Part shown: positions 22,665 through 32,221 of the stretch, in pieces
How positions within the stretch are numbered: the first letter of the stretch is position 1
Layout of the letters: every line of letters begins with the position of its first letter
Origin: Asticcacaulis solisilvae
Lineage (GTDB): Bacteria > Pseudomonadota > Alphaproteobacteria > Caulobacterales > Caulobacteraceae
Reading direction: 5' to 3'
Assembly (NCBI RefSeq): GCF_017875235.1
Contig: NZ_JAGGMI010000003.1
Coordinates: forward strand, 62,001 to 126,000
Length of the DNA: 64,000 nt
Translations under genes and position numbers: made by a program
Notes under the pieces: generated by a model
Databases searched by the model: none
Seen by the model: the letters and a program-made list of their open reading frames with translations, nothing else
Told to the model about the DNA's origin: nothing

Positions 22665-23024
22665 ATGGGTGTCACCGGCGTCGGCGGCTTTTTCTTTCGC
22701 GCAAACGATCCTGAGGCCTTGCGCGCCTGGTATGCCGAGAACTTAGGCGTCGGCACCGGGCCTTACGGTATGTGGGACCAGCACGCCGGCCCGACCGTCT
22801 TTTCGCCGTTCAAGGCCGATACCGATTATTTTCCCGCCGACCGGCAATACATGCTGAACCTGAGGGTCGATGGCCTCGATGGCCTGTGCGACACGTTGCG
22901 CACGGCCGGGATCGAGGTCATAACCAAGCCCGAATGGGACATGCCGGGCGTCGGCCGCTTCGCCCGCATCCACGATCCGGAAGGTAATCCGATCGAATTG
23001 TGGGAACCGGAAGCGGCGGAGTGA
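22665..23024 (+). CDS. VOC/glyoxalase family protein
   Basis: 119 residues. ATG 22665 has an excellent AAGGAGG at 22653. The vicinal-oxygen-chelate pattern is clear: VGGFFFRANDPEALRAWYAE, LGVGTGPYGMWD, FPADRQYMLNLRVDGLDGLC, and ARIHDPEGNPIELWEP carrying the metal-ligand Glu. Substrate unknown. The longer frame from 22542 is rejected as it crosses the direct repeat. Confidence 0.85.
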   Translation: MGVTGVGGFFFRANDPEALRAWYAENLGVGTGPYGMWDQHAGPTVFSPFKADTDYFPADRQYMLNLRVDGLDGLCDTLRTAGIEVITKPEWDMPGVGRFARIHDPEGNPIELWEPEAAE

Positions 23025-23160
23025 GGGCAAGGGCCGCAAAAAACGCGTTCGCCGTTTAATTCCCCCTGACTGTGCATCGAATGAGAAACATTCACCTGTT
23101 CCAATCTATGAATGGTAGCAAAGTCGTTATTGTCAAAAACTGTCCGGACGGCGTGAATTT

Positions 23161-24165
23161 ATGAGCATTCAGGACGGCAGAATTTTTTTCTTAGGAGCTG
23201 GCTTCTCTGCCGGCGGCGGAGTTCCCCTAACAAACACGCTTTTGCCCAAGGCCTCGGAATTTTTTAAGTGGGAAGCTGAGGGGCTGTTCGAAAGAGTAGC
23301 GGACTACGCAAATCAAGTGGACGTAAATCTAAACGGCTCACCAGATGCCGAAGATTTTGCTCGCTTATGCACTCACCTGGAGTTTGTAGAACTACGCGAA
23401 CATGCCGGGGGGGAGCGGTGGAGTTCCGCTGGTTGTCGAGAAAAAGTCGCGCTAAAATTTTTCCTATCCAAAGCAATTGCGCAATCAACACCATACGACC
23501 AAGACATTCCGCAGCAATACATTAAATTTGCTCAGGCACTTACATCCGATGATACCGTCGTTACATTTAACTGGGATTTGCTTCTCGAAAGAGCAATTAA
23601 TCTCGTGGGCAAACAATATTCATATAACTGGGAAGATGGAAAAATCCAAATTACTAAACTCCACGGCTCAATTAATTGGATAAACAATGAACCGCGCTCC
23701 TATGGTACAAATCGCAGGAATTTTGAATACGTTCCCATCGGGCTAAAAACCGATATGATTGACAATGAAGTCTACCACTCTAGACTCTTAGAACAAAAAA
23801 GTAACTGGTGGAATGTAAGTCCGCTGCTTGGAGAGGTTAGGCCGTTAATTGTTTTGCCGGGATTTGGCAAAGCATATGACGTCCGCACATTATCGACCCT
23901 TTGGTATAAAATTGAATTTTTAAACATACACCAAGGTGGGGTATCTATTATTGGTCTTAATGTATCCCAAGATGATTTTATCATGGAGAGTTTATTCCGG
24001 TATCTGTTCAGGGGAATTTTCAGCGACGACCGCAGTGTAAGGATTTTGAATCCGGATCAGAACGCCTATTCTCGCTTCGATAGTTTCTGCGATGGATTGA
24101 AATTAGATTTCAAATGCGAGCGCTTCGATAGCGACACACTAACTTTTGCTCTGCATACAGATTAA
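23161..24165 (+). CDS. SIR2-like domain protein, candidate NADase
   Basis: 334 residues. Rossmann NAD-binding motif GAGFSAGGGVP at 12-22, TFNWD at 135-139 with the catalytic-type Asn137, KLHGSINW at 166-173 with His168, and IIGLNVSQDDFIMESLF at 263-279 fit the SIR2-like family (SIR2_2) used by many antiphage systems to destroy NAD. It lacks the zinc cysteines of deacetylase sirtuins. The gene is markedly richer in A/T than its neighbours, stands alone, and is followed by an imperfect hairpin at about 24246-24268 then TCTTTT. These are signs of horizontal transfer. Role in defence is inference; a housekeeping role is possible. There is no second effector or sensor gene next to it. Confidence 0.8.
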   Translation: MSIQDGRIFFLGAGFSAGGGVPLTNTLLPKASEFFKWEAEGLFERVADYANQVDVNLNGSPDAEDFARLCTHLEFVELREHAGGERWSSAGCREKVALKFFLSKAIAQSTPYDQDIPQQYIKFAQALTSDDTVVTFNWDLLLERAINLVGKQYSYNWEDGKIQITKLHGSINWINNEPRSYGTNRRNFEYVPIGLKTDMIDNEVYHSRLLEQKSNWWNVSPLLGEVRPLIVLPGFGKAYDVRTLSTLWYKIEFLNIHQGGVSIIGLNVSQDDFIMESLFRYLFRGIFSDDRSVRILNPDQNAYSRFDSFCDGLKLDFKCERFDSDTLTFALHTD

Positions 24166-24278
24166 CGCGCAGATAAACAGGTCTTGAGGCGGTCTATTGA
24201 AATTCATGACAGGCTGATCGTCCCAGCAAATCTAAACTCCATATTACCGCCACTTGCGGCGCGGTATCTTTTATGAGG

Positions 24279-25916
24279 TCAGATCACCCCCGTGATCTTC
24301 AGCGCCACGCCGATATCGTGGTGCGCCGCCTCAGGCAACGTCACGTGCAGCCCCTTGGCGTCCTGGCGGAAGCTCAGCGGTGCGTCGCGGCCCACGGCCT
24401 CGACGCGGCGGACGTGGCCCGCCTTGCCCTTGGCCAATGACGCGACCGACACGGAGCCATTGGGCCGCCCAAGCGTAATGGCGTAGAGCGTCTTGCCCTT
24501 GGTGGTAAAGCGGATGTCGGCGGCGGTGAATGGCTTCTGCCGCCCTTCGCCAAACATGCCGGCGCCGACCTCGGTCGGGCCTTCGCCGAAGACGCGCCAC
24601 GGCCGCGTGCCGTAGATAGCCTCGGAAAACCGGCCCATCCATTCGCCGATGCCTTCGACGATGCGGCGCTCTTCGCTGTCGATCGAGCCGTCGCCGCGCA
24701 CCGGAATGCTCAGCAGCAGGTTGCCGTTCTTGGAGACGATGTCGCACAGGCGGTGAATGACCGCCGCGGCCGGCAGATAGCGCTTTTCTTCATAGACCCT
24801 GCGGTTGTAGTGCCAATCACCGATGCAGGTATCGGTCTGCCACGGCTGATCGCTGATGCCGGCTCGGAAGCCGCGTTCGACATCGGCGACGTAGCCGCCG
24901 CCCGGCGTGCCCTGTGGCTTGATGTTGATGACGCCGTCCAGCTTACCGTGGCGCTTGATCGAGGCATTGTAGTAATGCGCGGCGATATCGAGCCCCGCCT
25001 GCCCCAGCGGCAGGTCGAAATTGTCGAAATAGACCAGGTCCGGATCGTAGCTGTCGATCAGGTCCTTGCAGCGCAGGTACCATTGCCGCGTGAAGGCGGG
25101 ATTGTTGAGTGGTGCAGCCTCGTTCCAGACGCGGTCGTTTTTCTCGTGCCAGTCATAAGCCTCGGCCTTGGTCTTGATCCCCGCGGGCAGGGGCATGGTC
25201 GCCCCGGTATAAAGCTCCTGCGGGTCCAGCCCTTCCCACCACTGGCCCTTGCCATCAATCTTGTAACGGCGCCAGGCGTCGTAGCGCTCGCCGGCGCGCG
25301 GACCTTCGGGGTCATACCCATAGGCGGTCTGATACCAGTGCCAGGCGTGCGCCGAATGGTTCGAAACGCCGAACCTCAGGCCGTGCTTGCGCGCAGCCTT
25401 GGCCCAGCCGCCGATAATATCCTTCTTCGGCCCGATGCGCGTCGAATTCCAGTCGTGGAACTTCGAAGCGTACATGTCGAAATTGTCGTGGTGGTTGGCC
25501 ATGGCGACGAAATACTTCGCCCCGGCCCTGGCATAGAGGTCCAACAGACCGTCCGGATCCCAGTTTTCCGCCTTCCAGCGCGGATAGAAGTCCATGAAGC
25601 CAAAGTCGGCCGGGTGACCATAGGTCTTCACGTGATGCTCGTAGACCGGGTTGCCCTGCAGGTACATGCTGCGGGCATACCAGTCACCGAACTCAGGCAC
25701 GCATTGCGGCCCCCAGTGCGCCCACAGGCCGAACTTGGCGTCACGGAACCAGTCGGGCGCGCGGTAATTCGCGGCCAGCGACGCCCAGTCCGGTTTGAAC
25801 GGTCCGTCCGCAATGTCGGCGAAGCCCGGCTCCGCCAGGTCGGCGGCATGGGCGGACGCGGCGGAAGCGAGCGTAAGGCCCGCCGTCGCCTGCAGGAGGT
25901 GGCGTTTGGTCAGCAT
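24279..25916 (-). CDS. alpha-L-fucosidase, GH29 family
   Basis: 545 residues from ATG 25916, with AGGAACGGA upstream. An N-terminal signal peptide (MLTKRHLLQATAGLTLASAA ending ASAHA) sends it to the periplasm. The catalytic domain has FGLWAHWGPQCVPEFGDWYA, YFVAMANHHDNFDMY, FGVSNHSAHAWHWY and DPDLVYFDNFDLPL, where the Asp after YF is the expected nucleophile of GH29. A C-terminal beta domain has LYAITLGRP. It releases fucose from glycans. A perfect dyad at 25958-25980 is a likely operator, but no regulator or transporter is adjacent. Confidence 0.9.
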   Translation of the reverse strand: MLTKRHLLQATAGLTLASAASAHAADLAEPGFADIADGPFKPDWASLAANYRAPDWFRDAKFGLWAHWGPQCVPEFGDWYARSMYLQGNPVYEHHVKTYGHPADFGFMDFYPRWKAENWDPDGLLDLYARAGAKYFVAMANHHDNFDMYASKFHDWNSTRIGPKKDIIGGWAKAARKHGLRFGVSNHSAHAWHWYQTAYGYDPEGPRAGERYDAWRRYKIDGKGQWWEGLDPQELYTGATMPLPAGIKTKAEAYDWHEKNDRVWNEAAPLNNPAFTRQWYLRCKDLIDSYDPDLVYFDNFDLPLGQAGLDIAAHYYNASIKRHGKLDGVINIKPQGTPGGGYVADVERGFRAGISDQPWQTDTCIGDWHYNRRVYEEKRYLPAAAVIHRLCDIVSKNGNLLLSIPVRGDGSIDSEERRIVEGIGEWMGRFSEAIYGTRPWRVFGEGPTEVGAGMFGEGRQKPFTAADIRFTTKGKTLYAITLGRPNGSVSVASLAKGKAGHVRRVEAVGRDAPLSFRQDAKGLHVTLPEAAHHDIGVALKITGVI

Positions 25917-25957
25917 GATTTCCGTTCCTGTCGGCAATTTATAGCCATATTTAAAAA

Positions 25958-25980
25958 CATGTTTCCTATATGGAAACATG
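25958..25980. promoter_or_regulatory. operator-like dyad upstream of fucosidase
   Basis: CATGTTTCC-N5-GGAAACATG, a perfect 9-bp inverted repeat, 42 bases before the fucosidase ATG and directly after the methyltransferase stop. Suits a GntR- or LacI-type repressor. Confidence 0.6.
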
Positions 25981-25984
25981 CCTG

Positions 25985-26674
25985 TCAAGGACCGGCGGGC
26001 TTCTCGAACGTCCAGATGCGGATCATGGCGCGGCCGACATGGCGAATCCAGTCGCGATTCAGCCCGGCCAGGGCTTCGCCGCCGAAGACGTCGGTATGGG
26101 TGAGCAGCCGCAAGCCCGCTTGGCTCGCAGTTGCACGAATGTCGGCCTCGCTGTGGGCAAAGCTTTGCAGCTTGACGGCCCGACCGTCGCGATCGACAAA
26201 GTTTGCTTGCGTTCCGCCAGCGATCCGGTCGGGGTGAATTTCCGAAATGTAGAAGCCGCCGCCGGGCGTGAGCAGGTCCGCGACGCGAGCAAAGAAAACA
26301 GCAGGATCGTTGATATGCTCCAGCACCAGCGCGGTCACCACGGCGTCGAATGGCCCCGGCGGCGGCGCCGTCAGGATATCGCCTTCGATCAACGCGACAT
26401 CGAGGCTGGAAAGCTTCTCCCGCGCCACCGCCAGCATGCCGGGCGACAGGTCGATGCCGGTGACGCGATTGCCTGCCCTGGCCAGCCGGATGGTGTGGCG
26501 GCCGGTGCCACAGCCGATATCGAGGACGCGCAGGCCTGATAGATGCGCATAGACCGGCGGAAAATACAGGTCGTCGATGGCAACGGTCGAGTTGACATAG
26601 CCGTCATAGAGCTCCGCCCAGCGGTCATAGCTTTCGCGGTTCGTGGTCGAAATGGGAGATTCGGATTGCGTCAT
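25985..26674 (-). CDS. class I SAM-dependent methyltransferase
   Basis: 229 residues. Motif I LRVLDIGCGTGRHTIRLARA, motif II GIDLSPGMLAVAREKL, post-II LIEGDILTAPPPGPFDAVVT and LEHINDPAVFF, and LLTPGGGFYISEIHP identify a methyltransferase_11/25 fold. Substrate is not evident. ATG 26674 fits the family; the frame extends to 26767 without homology. Confidence 0.85.
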   Translation of the reverse strand: MTQSESPISTTNRESYDRWAELYDGYVNSTVAIDDLYFPPVYAHLSGLRVLDIGCGTGRHTIRLARAGNRVTGIDLSPGMLAVAREKLSSLDVALIEGDILTAPPPGPFDAVVTALVLEHINDPAVFFARVADLLTPGGGFYISEIHPDRIAGGTQANFVDRDGRAVKLQSFAHSEADIRATASQAGLRLLTHTDVFGGEALAGLNRDWIRHVGRAMIRIWTFEKPAGP

Positions 26675-26857: not shown

Positions 26858-29800
26858 TTACATGAAGTACAGGTCGTCCTTGGTTACACTACCGACGATC
26901 AGTGCGATATCGATGGCCGCGCCCGCCCCGGTGCCGTCGGCATCCCAGTAGAGCTGCCCCGTGGTGTCGTCCCAAATGAACTGAGCGTCCGTGCCCACCG
27001 ACGCAGTCCCGATGGTGAACTCCGAAGCCGACAGGGTGTGGCTGGCCGCGAAGCCGTAATCCGCGCCCGTGAACACCAGCCGGTCGGTGTCCTGTTCGAA
27101 GTCAGTGATCGTGTCGGTGCCGTTGGCTGCCGCGTCCGAGAAAACGAAGTCATCGGTATCGCCACCGCCGGTCAGGCTGTCATCGCCCACCCCGCCGGTC
27201 AGAATGTTGGCACCCGACGTACCGGTGATGGCGTTGTCGAGACCGTTCCCGGTGCCATTAGTTGCACCGCCGGTCAGAATGATGTTTTCGACATCGGCCG
27301 TCAGGGAGTAGTCCACCGAAGCGGTTACCGTGTCCGTCCCTTCGCTCGCAGCTTCGACCACCACGTCGCCAGCGTCATCGACGACATAACTGTCGTCGCC
27401 ATCGCCACCGGTGAGCGTGTCTGCACCTGCGCCGCCATCCAGGACATTGTTGCCGTTGGTGCCGGTAATGGCGTTGTCGAGCGCATTGCCCGTGCCGTTG
27501 GCCGCCAACCCCGTCAGGATCAGGTTTTCGACGTTGGCCGTCAGGGCGTAATCCACCGAAGCTGATACCGCATCCGTGCCTTCGCCGGACGCTTCGGTCA
27601 CCACGTCGCCAGCGTCATCGACGACATAGCTGTCGTCGCCGCCGCCACCGGTTAGCGTGTCCGCACCCGCGCTGCCATCCAGCGTGTCATTGCCGTCCCC
27701 GCCCGACAGGCTGTTGTTGCCCGCCGTCCCTATGATGGTGTTGGCCTGGCTGTTGCCCGTGCCGGACAACGCCGCGCCGGTCAGGATCAGGTGTTCGACC
27801 TCGGCTGTCAGGCCATAGTCGATGCCGGCTGAGACCGTGTCCGTGCCCTGGCCGGCTATTTCCACGACAACATCGCCGGCATCGTCAACGACGTAAGCGT
27901 CATTGCCCGCGCCGCCGCTGAGGCTGTCCGCGCCGACGCCGCCATCGAGACTGTCCTGGCCATTGCCGCCCGAAAGCGTGTCATTGCCATCGCCGCCCGA
28001 GAGGCTGTTATTGCCGCCATTGCCTGTCAGCGTGTTGTCGAGGGCGTTGCCGGTCGCCGATGTGTTGCCCGATCCCGACAGGATGACGGTTTCGATATTG
28101 GCCGTGGCGGTGTAGCTGATCGACGACGACACCGTATCCGCGCCTTCGCCGAGGGCTTCGACGACAGAGTCCGAAGCGCTGTCGACAGAGTAGAAGTCGT
28201 TTCCGAGCCCGCCGATCATGCTGTCGCTGCTTCCGCCACCGTTCAGCGTGTCGTTACCGTCACCGCCGATCAGCGTATCGTTGCCGCCTCCGCCGGACAG
28301 ACTGTTGTCGCCGCTGTTGCCGGTGAGCGTGTTGGCTTGGCTGTTGCCTGTGCTCGATATATTACCGGAGCCGGTCAGCACGACGTTTTCGACGTTCGCC
28401 GCCGCATTGAAGCTGACCGAGGCATGGATCGTATCGGTACCTTCGCTGGCGTTTTCGACCACCACTTCGCCAGCATCATCAACATAATAGGTATCGTTGC
28501 CCGCACCACCGTTCAGCGTATCCGCTCCCGCAGCCCCGTCCAGCGTGTTGGCCGAGGCATTGCCGGTGATGGCATTGGCCCCGGCATTGCCGGTGCCGTC
28601 GCTGGCCGAACCCAGCAGGGTCAGATGCTCGAAATCGGCCGCGAGGGTGTGGCTCAGGTGGGAGCGGACCATGTCAGTGCCTTCGCCTGCGTTTTCAACG
28701 ATGACGTCGCTACCGTTGTCGATGACGTAGGTGTCGTCGCCAAGTCCGCCGCTCAGGCTATCCGAGCCCAGGCCACCGTCCAGCGTATCATTGCCGTCAC
28801 CGCCGTTGAGCGTATTGTCGCCGTCATTGCCGGTGAGGACGTTGTCTGCGCTGTTGCCGGTTCCGGTCAGCGCCGCCGCACCGGTCAGCGTCAGGTTTTC
28901 GAAATTGGCGCCCAGGGCGTGCGAGGCATTGATAACGACCGTATCAGTGCCCGCGTTGGAGCCTTCGGTGAAGACATCGCCGGCGTCGTCGACGATATAT
29001 GTGTCGTCGCCCAGCCCGCCTGTGAGCGTATCGGCACCTGCGCCGCCGTCGAGAATATTATTCCCGCTGTTGCCATTGAGCACATTGCCGTTGTCATTTC
29101 CGGTGACATCGATGTTGCCGGAGCCCGTCAGATTCAGCGCTTCGATATTGTCTACGCCGGCCAGCGAATAGGAGGCGGTCGCCTCGATGGTGTCGTTGCC
29201 CTCACCCGCCAATTCGGTGACGATATCGCCGGTATTATCGACGCGGTAAAGATCGTCGCCGACTCCGCCAATCAGCGTGTCCACACCGCCGCCGCCATCG
29301 ACCGTATCGTTGCCGTCATGGCTTGTCAAAACGTTGGCGGCGACATTGCCTACCATGTCGTTGGCGACGCTGTTGCCTGTGCCGTTGATGGTGTCGGCAC
29401 CCGTCAGGGTCAGGTTTTCGAAGTTGGTCGCCAGGGTCCACGTGATGGAGGAACGGATACGATCGATGCCCTGCCCGGCCGTTTCTGTCAGCAGGTCAGC
29501 GATATTATCGACGCCGTACGTGTCATTGCCGGTGCTGCCGGTCAGGGTATCAACGCCGCCACCGCCATCCAGCCAGTCATTGCCGTCATACCCCAGCAGC
29601 GAGCTGTTGCCGGAATTGCCGAGGATGACGTTGTCGAGGACGTTACCGTAGCCATGGATATTGGCCGTACCTGTCTGTGTCAGGTTCTCAACATTGGCTT
29701 CGAGCGTATACCCCCTGTGGACATACACAAGGTCGGTGCCCCCATTGGGGTCCTCGAAGGTGCGATCGTTGAGATCGACCAAGGTCACATCAACGACAAA

Positions 29801-32221
29801 GGTGTCGTCACCCAGGCCGCCGTACATTGAGTCATAGCCGGTGCCGCCGTCGATGTAATCGTTGCCGCCGTTGCCAAACAGGAAGTCCCTGTCGCCGCCG
29901 TAGCCCATCAATATGTTATTGCCGCTGTTGCCATTAAGCTGGTTGTTGATGGCATTGCCGCTTGCATTGATGTCGGCGGTTCCGAGGAGAGTAATGCGGT
30001 CCAGGTTTGCGTCGGCCACAAGACTGAAATAGGTATAGGCGTGGTCTGCGCCCGCGCCACCGATTACCACATCACCAATATTATCGACCATATAGGCATC
30101 CTGACCGCCGCCGCCGACCATGGTGTCGGCGCCTTCGCCGCCGTCAAGATCATCGTCCCCGGTCCCACCTTCCAGGCGGTCGGCACCCTCATAGCCGAAA
30201 AGTGTGTCGTTTCCTTCGTTGCCGTACAGCGTGTTGTCACCCGACGTTCCGCGCATGATATTGGCCGCCTTGTTGGCATGGCCGACAAGATTACCCGTGC
30301 CAGTCAGGATCAGTTCGTCGATATTGTCGCTCAGGTCGTAGGTCACCGATGAATAAACGATATCCCAACCATGGGCTGGCAAGGTTTCCTGAATAACATC
30401 GTACCAGGAGTCGACATAATAGACGTCATCCTGCGACAGGCCGATCATGGTATCATCGCCCACGCCGCCGTCCAGCGTATCGGCACCGATATAACCGTGC
30501 AGCACATCATTGCCGCCACCACCTGTGATGAGGTTGGCGCCGGAATTGCCGATGATTACGTTAGCGACGGCTGTGCCCGTGATGTCGGCGCTTATGGTAT
30601 CCGTCGCCGTCAGCGTCAGGTTTTCGATATTGGCGAGGGTGTTCATATCGGTGGAGAATGAGGTGTAGACAGTGTCCGCCCCCTCACCCGCCGCTTCGAC
30701 GACAACGTCACCGAGATGGTCGATATAGAAGGCATCATTGCCTGTTCCGCCCGTCATCGTATCCGCGCCGGTCCCGCCATACAGGGTGTCGTTGCCCCCG
30801 GACCCGATGAGGTTGTCCGCTCCGTCGAGGCCGTACAGCGTGTCATTGTCCGCACCTCCGTCAACAATGTCATCACCTGCATCGCCACTGATGAAGTCGG
30901 TTCCGGCCGAGCCCCACAGGGTGTCGTTGCCGCCGCCCGCGTAGATGGTGTCGTTGCCGGCCCCGCCATCAATGGTTTCGTGCGCGACCGTGCCATAGTA
31001 TTTTTCGGCGCCGCCGCTGACAGTTGTATTGGTGAAGACCTGCTGGTGCACGTCACCCAGTGACTGATAATGCACCCAGGCCGCGACAAAATTGCCGTTC
31101 TCGGTCTCGGCAAAGACAGGATGAACCTGACTTCCGGTCAACTGGGTATTGACCAGGGTCTCAAAGCCCACCGTATTCCCGTCAGCGTCGTAACGCTGCA
31201 TATAGGTGCCGTAGGGCAGGCTGGAGACGACGTCCTGGTTCTTACTGGTCCAACCTATGACGAAACCTCCGTCGGCCAGGGCCGTGACCCGGCCGTAATT
31301 CTGGTTTTCTGCCGTGTAGGTATTGACCCGGAACTCTGCTCCCAGCGCGTTGTCGGCCGAGTCGAAACGTTGCGCATAAACACCCAGATCGCTACCGTCC
31401 TGCCCGTAGCTGCTCCAGGTGATGACGTAGGTGTCGTTGTTCAGCACCGCGACAAATGGAATCCCCTGATCGCTGGTGGTATAGGTGTTGATACGCCTTT
31501 CGGATCCCACCGCAACGCCGCTGGCATTAAACCGCTGGGCATAAACGCCCCAGGTCGAGCCGTCCTGAAGGTAGCTGGCCCAGGTGATGACATAGCTGCC
31601 GTCGCTGAAGGCAGCGACGGACTGGTTGGTTTGGGCATTGGCCGTGGTGGTGTTAATTCGGGTCTCCCCTCCGGCCGCAGCGCCCGACAGCTCGTAACGC
31701 TGAGCGAAGATGCCGGAGGAATCGACCTGGCCGGTCTGCGCGCCGTTGCCTTCCCAGGTGACGATAAAGCCGTTCGCGCCCAGATCACTGATCTGCAAAC
31801 CCAGCAGCGGCTCGGTCGTTGCCAGCCCCTGATTGCCGGCTGTAGTCGTGTTGACGCGGAACTCCGAGCCCTGCGTCGTGCCATCCGAATTGAACCGCTG
31901 GGCGTAAATCCCTGCCCCTGGCCCGTCCTGACCATTGCTGACCCAGGCAACCACGTAGTCGCCGTCGTCCAGGCGCGCGACCGTCGGCGTCGTCTGCTCA
32001 CCCGCGGTCGTGGTGTTGACGCGGGTTTCGGCGCCAACCTTGGTTCCGGCATTGTCAAAGCGTTGCTGGTAAATGCCATGGCCGGATCCGTCCTGGCCGC
32101 TGCTCTGCCATATGAGCGTATAGCCGCCCCCCGGATGCGTGACGATCTTGTGATCGAACTGGTTGCTTGTCACGTAGGTGTTGGCGGTTGTGACCGCACC
32201 GGCCGTATAGGCAGTGACCAT
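26858..32221 (-). CDS. giant RTX-repeat secreted protein (1787 aa)
   Basis: Residues about 15-380 are seven tandem repeats of roughly 53 residues, each with WSSxGQDGSGxGIYAQRF, VGxExRVNTxT and a VAxLxDGxYVVTW strand. From about 400 to 1690 there are more than 20 blocks of hemolysin-type calcium-binding nonapeptides (GGxGNDTLxGGxGxD) alternating with the linker YVVDDAGDVVVEAAxEGTDT. The C-terminal region (FIWDDTTGQLYWDADGTGAG, ending DDLYFM) is the usual type I secretion signal module. No signal peptide. Ribosome site AGGGGA is seven bases before the ATG. Likely a cell-surface or matrix protein folded by external calcium; no transporter is in the window. Confidence 0.9.
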   Translation of the reverse strand: MVTAYTAGAVTTANTYVTSNQFDHKIVTHPGGGYTLIWQSSGQDGSGHGIYQQRFDNAGTKVGAETRVNTTTAGEQTTPTVARLDDGDYVVAWVSNGQDGPGAGIYAQRFNSDGTTQGSEFRVNTTTAGNQGLATTEPLLGLQISDLGANGFIVTWEGNGAQTGQVDSSGIFAQRYELSGAAAGGETRINTTTANAQTNQSVAAFSDGSYVITWASYLQDGSTWGVYAQRFNASGVAVGSERRINTYTTSDQGIPFVAVLNNDTYVITWSSYGQDGSDLGVYAQRFDSADNALGAEFRVNTYTAENQNYGRVTALADGGFVIGWTSKNQDVVSSLPYGTYMQRYDADGNTVGFETLVNTQLTGSQVHPVFAETENGNFVAAWVHYQSLGDVHQQVFTNTTVSGGAEKYYGTVAHETIDGGAGNDTIYAGGGNDTLWGSAGTDFISGDAGDDIVDGGADNDTLYGLDGADNLIGSGGNDTLYGGTGADTMTGGTGNDAFYIDHLGDVVVEAAGEGADTVYTSFSTDMNTLANIENLTLTATDTISADITGTAVANVIIGNSGANLITGGGGNDVLHGYIGADTLDGGVGDDTMIGLSQDDVYYVDSWYDVIQETLPAHGWDIVYSSVTYDLSDNIDELILTGTGNLVGHANKAANIMRGTSGDNTLYGNEGNDTLFGYEGADRLEGGTGDDDLDGGEGADTMVGGGGQDAYMVDNIGDVVIGGAGADHAYTYFSLVADANLDRITLLGTADINASGNAINNQLNGNSGNNILMGYGGDRDFLFGNGGNDYIDGGTGYDSMYGGLGDDTFVVDVTLVDLNDRTFEDPNGGTDLVYVHRGYTLEANVENLTQTGTANIHGYGNVLDNVILGNSGNSSLLGYDGNDWLDGGGGVDTLTGSTGNDTYGVDNIADLLTETAGQGIDRIRSSITWTLATNFENLTLTGADTINGTGNSVANDMVGNVAANVLTSHDGNDTVDGGGGVDTLIGGVGDDLYRVDNTGDIVTELAGEGNDTIEATASYSLAGVDNIEALNLTGSGNIDVTGNDNGNVLNGNSGNNILDGGAGADTLTGGLGDDTYIVDDAGDVFTEGSNAGTDTVVINASHALGANFENLTLTGAAALTGTGNSADNVLTGNDGDNTLNGGDGNDTLDGGLGSDSLSGGLGDDTYVIDNGSDVIVENAGEGTDMVRSHLSHTLAADFEHLTLLGSASDGTGNAGANAITGNASANTLDGAAGADTLNGGAGNDTYYVDDAGEVVVENASEGTDTIHASVSFNAAANVENVVLTGSGNISSTGNSQANTLTGNSGDNSLSGGGGNDTLIGGDGNDTLNGGGSSDSMIGGLGNDFYSVDSASDSVVEALGEGADTVSSSISYTATANIETVILSGSGNTSATGNALDNTLTGNGGNNSLSGGDGNDTLSGGNGQDSLDGGVGADSLSGGAGNDAYVVDDAGDVVVEIAGQGTDTVSAGIDYGLTAEVEHLILTGAALSGTGNSQANTIIGTAGNNSLSGGDGNDTLDGSAGADTLTGGGGDDSYVVDDAGDVVTEASGEGTDAVSASVDYALTANVENLILTGLAANGTGNALDNAITGTNGNNVLDGGAGADTLTGGDGDDSYVVDDAGDVVVEAASEGTDTVTASVDYSLTADVENIILTGGATNGTGNGLDNAITGTSGANILTGGVGDDSLTGGGDTDDFVFSDAAANGTDTITDFEQDTDRLVFTGADYGFAASHTLSASEFTIGTASVGTDAQFIWDDTTGQLYWDADGTGAGAAIDIALIVGSVTKDDLYFM

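Follow-up and report, generated by a model that had tools for sequence, protein, structure and literature searches.

The stretch analysed here, called the window, comprises 64,000 nucleotides of a contig of Asticcacaulis solisilvae and carries a gene for a SIR2-like protein of 334 codons, counted from an ATG in the window's list of open reading frames (ORFs); the alignment places the start where it lies in the closest relatives. An earlier note, made from the letters alone, had marked positions 23025-24278 as a solitary SIR2-like gene on an A/T-rich island and as a candidate standalone defence NADase. That range does enclose the gene, but it is the gene together with both spacers, from the stop codon of the upstream neighbour at 23024 to the end of the convergent gene at 24279 (Table 1). 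The upstream neighbour is a glyoxalase-like gene and the downstream one encodes an alpha-L-fucosidase; no partner gene is adjacent, and in this sense the gene is as solitary as had been claimed.

The base composition of the gene is extreme. Its G+C content is 0.436 (0.433 at third codon positions), below the minimum of 1,213 other 1,005-base stretches of the window (mean 0.626, minimum 0.493) and below that of 4,560 stretches of equal length from twelve 20-kb pieces of the genome (mean 0.619, minimum 0.503), so that the A/T-rich island is real. A genome search found the gene in a single copy. Promoter and terminator scans gave about the same yield as shuffled sequence.

Table 1. Positions of the SIR2-like gene, its spacers and the motifs of its product (positions are those of the window).
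Feature	Positions	Strand	Evidence or remark
SIR2-like gene, 334 residues, stop codon included	23161..24165	+	ORF; SIR2_2 match; 442 homologues; AlphaFold2 (AF2) model
Upstream spacer, 136 bases, G+C 0.471	23025..23160	.	no leader ORF seen to be shared with relatives
Downstream spacer, 113 bases, up to the convergent fucosidase gene, G+C 0.487	24166..24278	.	
GAGFS, codons 12-16, dinucleotide-binding-type loop	23194..23208	+	invariant in 37/37 aligned members
TFNWD, codons 135-139, catalytic-type Asn137	23563..23577	+	Asn137 invariant 37/37; inside Pfam SIR2_2 stretch 132-174
KLHG, codons 166-169, catalytic-type His168	23656..23667	+	His168 invariant 37/37
IIGLNVSQDD, codons 263-272, late Rossmann strand and loop	23947..23976	+	Gly265, Asp271 and Asp272 invariant

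Predicted fold and protein family

The AF2 model of the protein (predicted local distance difference test score, pLDDT, 92.1) shows the SIR2 fold over its whole length, without a separate sensor or second domain. By structure comparison the closest folds are SIR2-HerA chains at 14-20% identity, and the alignment to the SIR2 fold reaches residue 329-334. The features of the SIR2-like superfamily, namely a Rossmann fold, a GxGxS-type loop and the TxN and HG motifs, are all present, and the fold, for which the earlier note had proposed structure prediction and comparison as a check, is borne out with its catalytic-type residues in place. The four motifs of Table 1, Asn137 and His168 had all been named at the right residues. 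Among the 37 aligned members, taken from the 120 listed homologues and 333-366 residues long, Trp138, Asp139, Lys166, Gly169 and many positions elsewhere are also invariant. In a profile alignment His168 pairs, by our own count, with His146 of KomC, of which the H146N variant is named in a structure entry title. The cysteines at 70, 92, 310 and 319 are scattered and form no CxxC, CxxxC or CxxxxC pair, which agrees with the claim that zinc cysteines are absent. Canonical sirtuin deacylases carry a four-cysteine zinc module; a zinc-type sirtuin was rejected on the lack of cysteine pairs.

Pfam SIR2_2 was matched at E 1.3e-4 and 22.5 bits, slightly below the 24.5-bit cut-off, and PADLOC gave weak matches to its SIR2 and Aga_SIR2 models and to the candidate models PDC-S21 (E 7.6e-4) and PDC-S25 (E 9.7e-4). 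The NCBIfam scan gave no SIR2 match; a search of the PDB gave no match with the single sequence and marginal SIR2 matches with a profile (best E 0.01). The 442 homologues were found at E<=0.001 among 5.8 billion proteins. The closest of the 120 listed has 66% identity, two of the 120 are named 'SIR2 family protein', and no family name of its own was found for the protein in the libraries used.

Distribution and neighbourhoods

Matches to the protein were found in three of 119 relatives' genomes: its own, one of the same order (49% identity) and one weak case (7.9e-15). None was found in the 24 other genomes of the genus, and of the 385 class genomes searched, its own is the sole one to match at 1e-30. 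Vertical inheritance would have been suggested by homologues at one shared site in every close relative, which is not what was found; with no match among the 24 congeners and the extreme composition, the claim of acquisition holds, and the gene was probably acquired horizontally, as judged from sequence. The stretches fetched from congeners, about 1.5 kb on each side of their glyoxalase or fucosidase genes, did not contain both genes together, and the junction was not seen in relatives.

Fifty-nine loci were found in GTDB contigs: 17 (labelled L024-L040) with 36-58% identity in the best segment and 42 with 23-49%, mostly below 30%. The G+C content of the gene is lower than that of its flanks at 17 of 19 loci, several of the differences being tiny; it is higher at L032 and equal at L033. 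The carriers in a tree of 19 proteins belong, by their record titles, to Pseudomonadota, Nitrospirota, Campylobacterota and Ignavibacteriota; with 4 of its 16 inner branches starred, that tree has little resolution and does not prove transfer.

At the 19 loci, every neighbour lying no more than 8 kb away was compared with every other. A tyrosine-type integrase is the sole neighbour shared at three loci (L027, L037 and L108), and otherwise there are odd pairs: L025 with L034 (LysR-like by eye), L031 with L036 (an unidentified protein) and L031 with the window (RTX-type repeats). No recurrent partner gene was found at the 19 loci, and on these grounds a hidden partner next door was rejected. Neighbours chosen by eye could be named as defence or mobile-element genes at 8 of 17 loci: a second SIR2_2 protein (L025), AbiV (L027), OloA (L028), an MmeI-type IIG enzyme (L030), a caspase and TniQ (L034), Mrr (L036), an integrase and PDC-S06 (L037) and an HNH nuclease (L108).

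Two of these loci deserve separate description. The second SIR2_2 protein, L025:4075-5352 on the minus strand, differs from the family member and lies 2.6 kb from it. At L034:31-10576, in a metagenome-assembled genome (MAG) of Colwellia, the family member stands between the TniQ-type gene and the caspase-domain gene, and looks like transposon cargo. In the window itself, 26858-32221 on the minus strand encodes a protein of 1,787 residues in which Pfam HemolysinCabind matches 13 stretches of RTX calcium-binding repeats; it is presumably a large secreted protein. The alpha-L-fucosidase gene (24279-25988, minus strand) has eight matching pieces in its own genome, five genes by our count, and at least one match in each of the 24 congeners; these copies suggest growth on fucose-bearing polysaccharides.

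The distant relatives (28 of 45 lower-identity loci were examined, L069 being without a readable frame) have frames of 326-418 residues, many near 390, and no recurring neighbour at 27 loci with two ORFs per side, the near-identical pair L049 and L083 excepted. In this pair, from Pandoraea aquatica (L049:6466-10170) and a viral contig (L083:6369-9921), an integrase-like gene, a distant SIR2-like gene and a downstream gene follow one another; the integrase-like and downstream neighbours are 97-98% identical over their aligned parts, so that the distant family seems to travel on a mobile element.

Interpretation and rival explanations

We lean, with modest confidence, towards a single-domain SIR2 protein that has no partner, was acquired horizontally and cleaves nicotinamide adenine dinucleotide (NAD+). 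What carries this reading, on the evidence of sequences and model, is the predicted fold, the invariant Asn and His, the lack of zinc cysteines, of a second domain and of a recurrent partner, the patchy distribution and the foreign composition; as far as sequence can tell, the earlier note was right on fold, acquisition and solitude. A defence role may reasonably be inferred, and the protein is probably a single-gene abortive-infection factor, as yet putative. By analogy with studied effectors we infer NAD+ cleavage, a self-held off state, a phage trigger and an abortive outcome. The protein would be made in an off state and, as no nearby product could restrain it, would keep itself there, perhaps by forming an oligomer or by covering the pocket with a lid; a signal derived from the phage would then switch it on, and the loss of NAD+ would halt the infected cell before phage release. 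We suggest, more tentatively, that in this family of about 335-365 residues, which lacks a partner or sensor domain, one compact domain may both detect infection and destroy NAD+.

Several observations weigh against a solitary defence protein. At nine of the 17 loci, the window included, no gene of defence or of a mobile element can be named. Neighbours were picked by eye for single PADLOC scans and matched in 7 of 10 cases at 1e-4 in a first batch and in 1 of 10 at 1e-5 in a second. Among 20 window ORFs scanned singly, 18 had no PADLOC match at 1e-5, and the other two gave generic ones, a methyltransferase to mad2 and an amylase-type enzyme to a GlgB model. A pooled scan of 129 neighbour ORFs from 17 loci gave 56 PADLOC families at E<=1e-8 (25 shown), and a control of 150 ORFs from 15 regions gave 22 at the same threshold; one protein can match many models, housekeeping proteins match too, and both sets hold look-alikes. 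The control was not clean enough for these tallies to be read as defence enrichment. No match to the protein was found in the phage search, and plasmids gave one weak relative. The SIR2 domain of DSR2 alone did not degrade NAD+, according to PMC10973363, and a bare SIR2 domain therefore need not be an autonomous sensor.

The pooled scan needs some definition. Its best mad2 match is the window's own methyltransferase, and its tallies carry no member names, so that PDC-S13, PD-T4-6, mad6 and others are not tied to loci. It left out L038 and L040 (contig end, broken frame); two singly scanned ORFs (L037:11351-13705 and L032:3623-7993) lie outside its 6-kb rule. ORFs were taken greedily by length, so that some of those admitted are spurious antisense frames; the scan missed the window's PP2C and deformylase genes, which were then examined singly. 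The control held 150 of 154 ORFs, leaving out all three of L145 and one of L146.

A phage origin was rejected: the phage search was empty, three distant loci (25-29%), L083 among them, lie in viral contigs, and no BFVD fold match appeared at E<=0.001.

Among the rival explanations, an NAD-using enzyme that serves outside defence, for instance in a deacylase-like role or in nucleotide metabolism, and whose gene has spread as an accessory one, survives best, and we regard it as unlikely. The missing zinc cysteines speak against it, as do the higher Z scores and larger numbers of aligned residues with most SIR2-HerA chains, the very patchy distribution and the neighbourhoods, in which no metabolic neighbour recurs at the 19 loci.

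Slightly less likely still is a split system in which the protein serves as effector, while its partner (a HerA-like ATPase, an Argonaute or another sensor) lies elsewhere and acts in trans. In favour are the resemblance to SIR2-HerA chains and the hits of 36 of the 37 members on the PADLOC Aga_SIR2 Class II model (best 1.1e-8). According to PMC10620215, GbbAgaS, a SIR2_2 protein, by itself lowers viability about 10^4-fold and reduces NAD+, its toxicity being abolished by N155A and silenced by its own Argonaute; by analogy this also lends support to the NAD+-cleaving mechanism of our main reading. The window protein, however, reaches 21 bits against Aga_SIR2, with its best stretch at 118-178, and no Piwi match was found in its own genome or in any of the 17 carrier genomes, an absence that is soft because several carriers are MAGs and completeness is given for 2 of 17. 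Some DUF87 match occurs in all 17 carriers, yet it also does in all 14 control genomes, so that weak matches say little, and strong ones (<1e-15) are confined to 4 of the 17. Neither partner thus explains the family, subject to the caveat on MAGs, and Argonaute or HerA in trans was rejected as a family-wide partner.

It is improbable that the protein is the toxin of a toxin-antitoxin-like or selfish element with a small unnoticed gene or RNA as antitoxin: single-gene insertions at unrelated sites and a GTG-initiated 30-codon frame (23072-23164) over the start codon would suit it, but by eye no short upstream frame is common to the 15 listed loci (L028 and L108 with inexact start). Least probable is a decaying remnant of an acquired element without present function, which the unseen junction and the lack of element ends, sought as a tRNA in the window or a repeat of at least 14 bases common to the two flanks, would allow, but which fits poorly with an intact 334-residue frame that keeps every residue invariant in the other 36 aligned members.

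Comparison with known SIR2 systems

To our knowledge, the known SIR2 defence effectors are switched by another domain (DSR2), by another protein (HerA, Argonaute, KomB) or by a nucleotide signal (ThsA). A conserved family without such switches raises the question of what keeps a lone NAD-destroying domain harmless and what activates it, and if the distant relatives, likewise without a recurring neighbour, work alike, self-contained SIR2 immune proteins would form a broad class. Searches for a solitary SIR2 defence protein in an open-licence library, which covers neither preprints nor most subscription journals, listed no paper that could be tied to this family; PMC9519451 names a Sir2 homologue among its systems.

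The window protein shares its fold with the SIR2 subunit of SIR2-HerA (Nezha), but identity is low, no HerA gene is adjacent and strong DUF87 matches occur in just 4 of the 17 carriers. With bAgaS, for which we read the PADLOC Aga_SIR2 model (343 positions) to stand, it shares the SIR2_2 type, and 36 of the 37 members match the model weakly; for the Argonaute (Piwi) partner of the long-B Argonaute systems (BPAS) and of SPARSA, no match was found in its own genome or in the 17 carriers searched. ThsA of Thoeris has a SLOG second domain and chains of 467-473 residues, whereas the window protein is SIR2 throughout, and no TIR protein is among the four neighbours scanned at the window locus. DSR2, compared here for DSR1/DSR2, has chains of about 920-1,000 residues with a C-terminal sensing domain (PMC10973363), for which the window protein is far too short. 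KomC (Kongming) was solved with KomB in several entries, by their titles, and no such partner recurs among the loci compared here. PDC-S21 and PDC-S25 are likewise candidate defence models, but they are matched along part of their length, at only 16-17 bits; canonical sirtuin deacylases differ in their zinc module, the window protein having no close cysteine pairs. Each named system considered fails on a feature tested, and the protein is therefore best described as a member of a solitary SIR2 family, which by analogy probably works like the NADase effectors.
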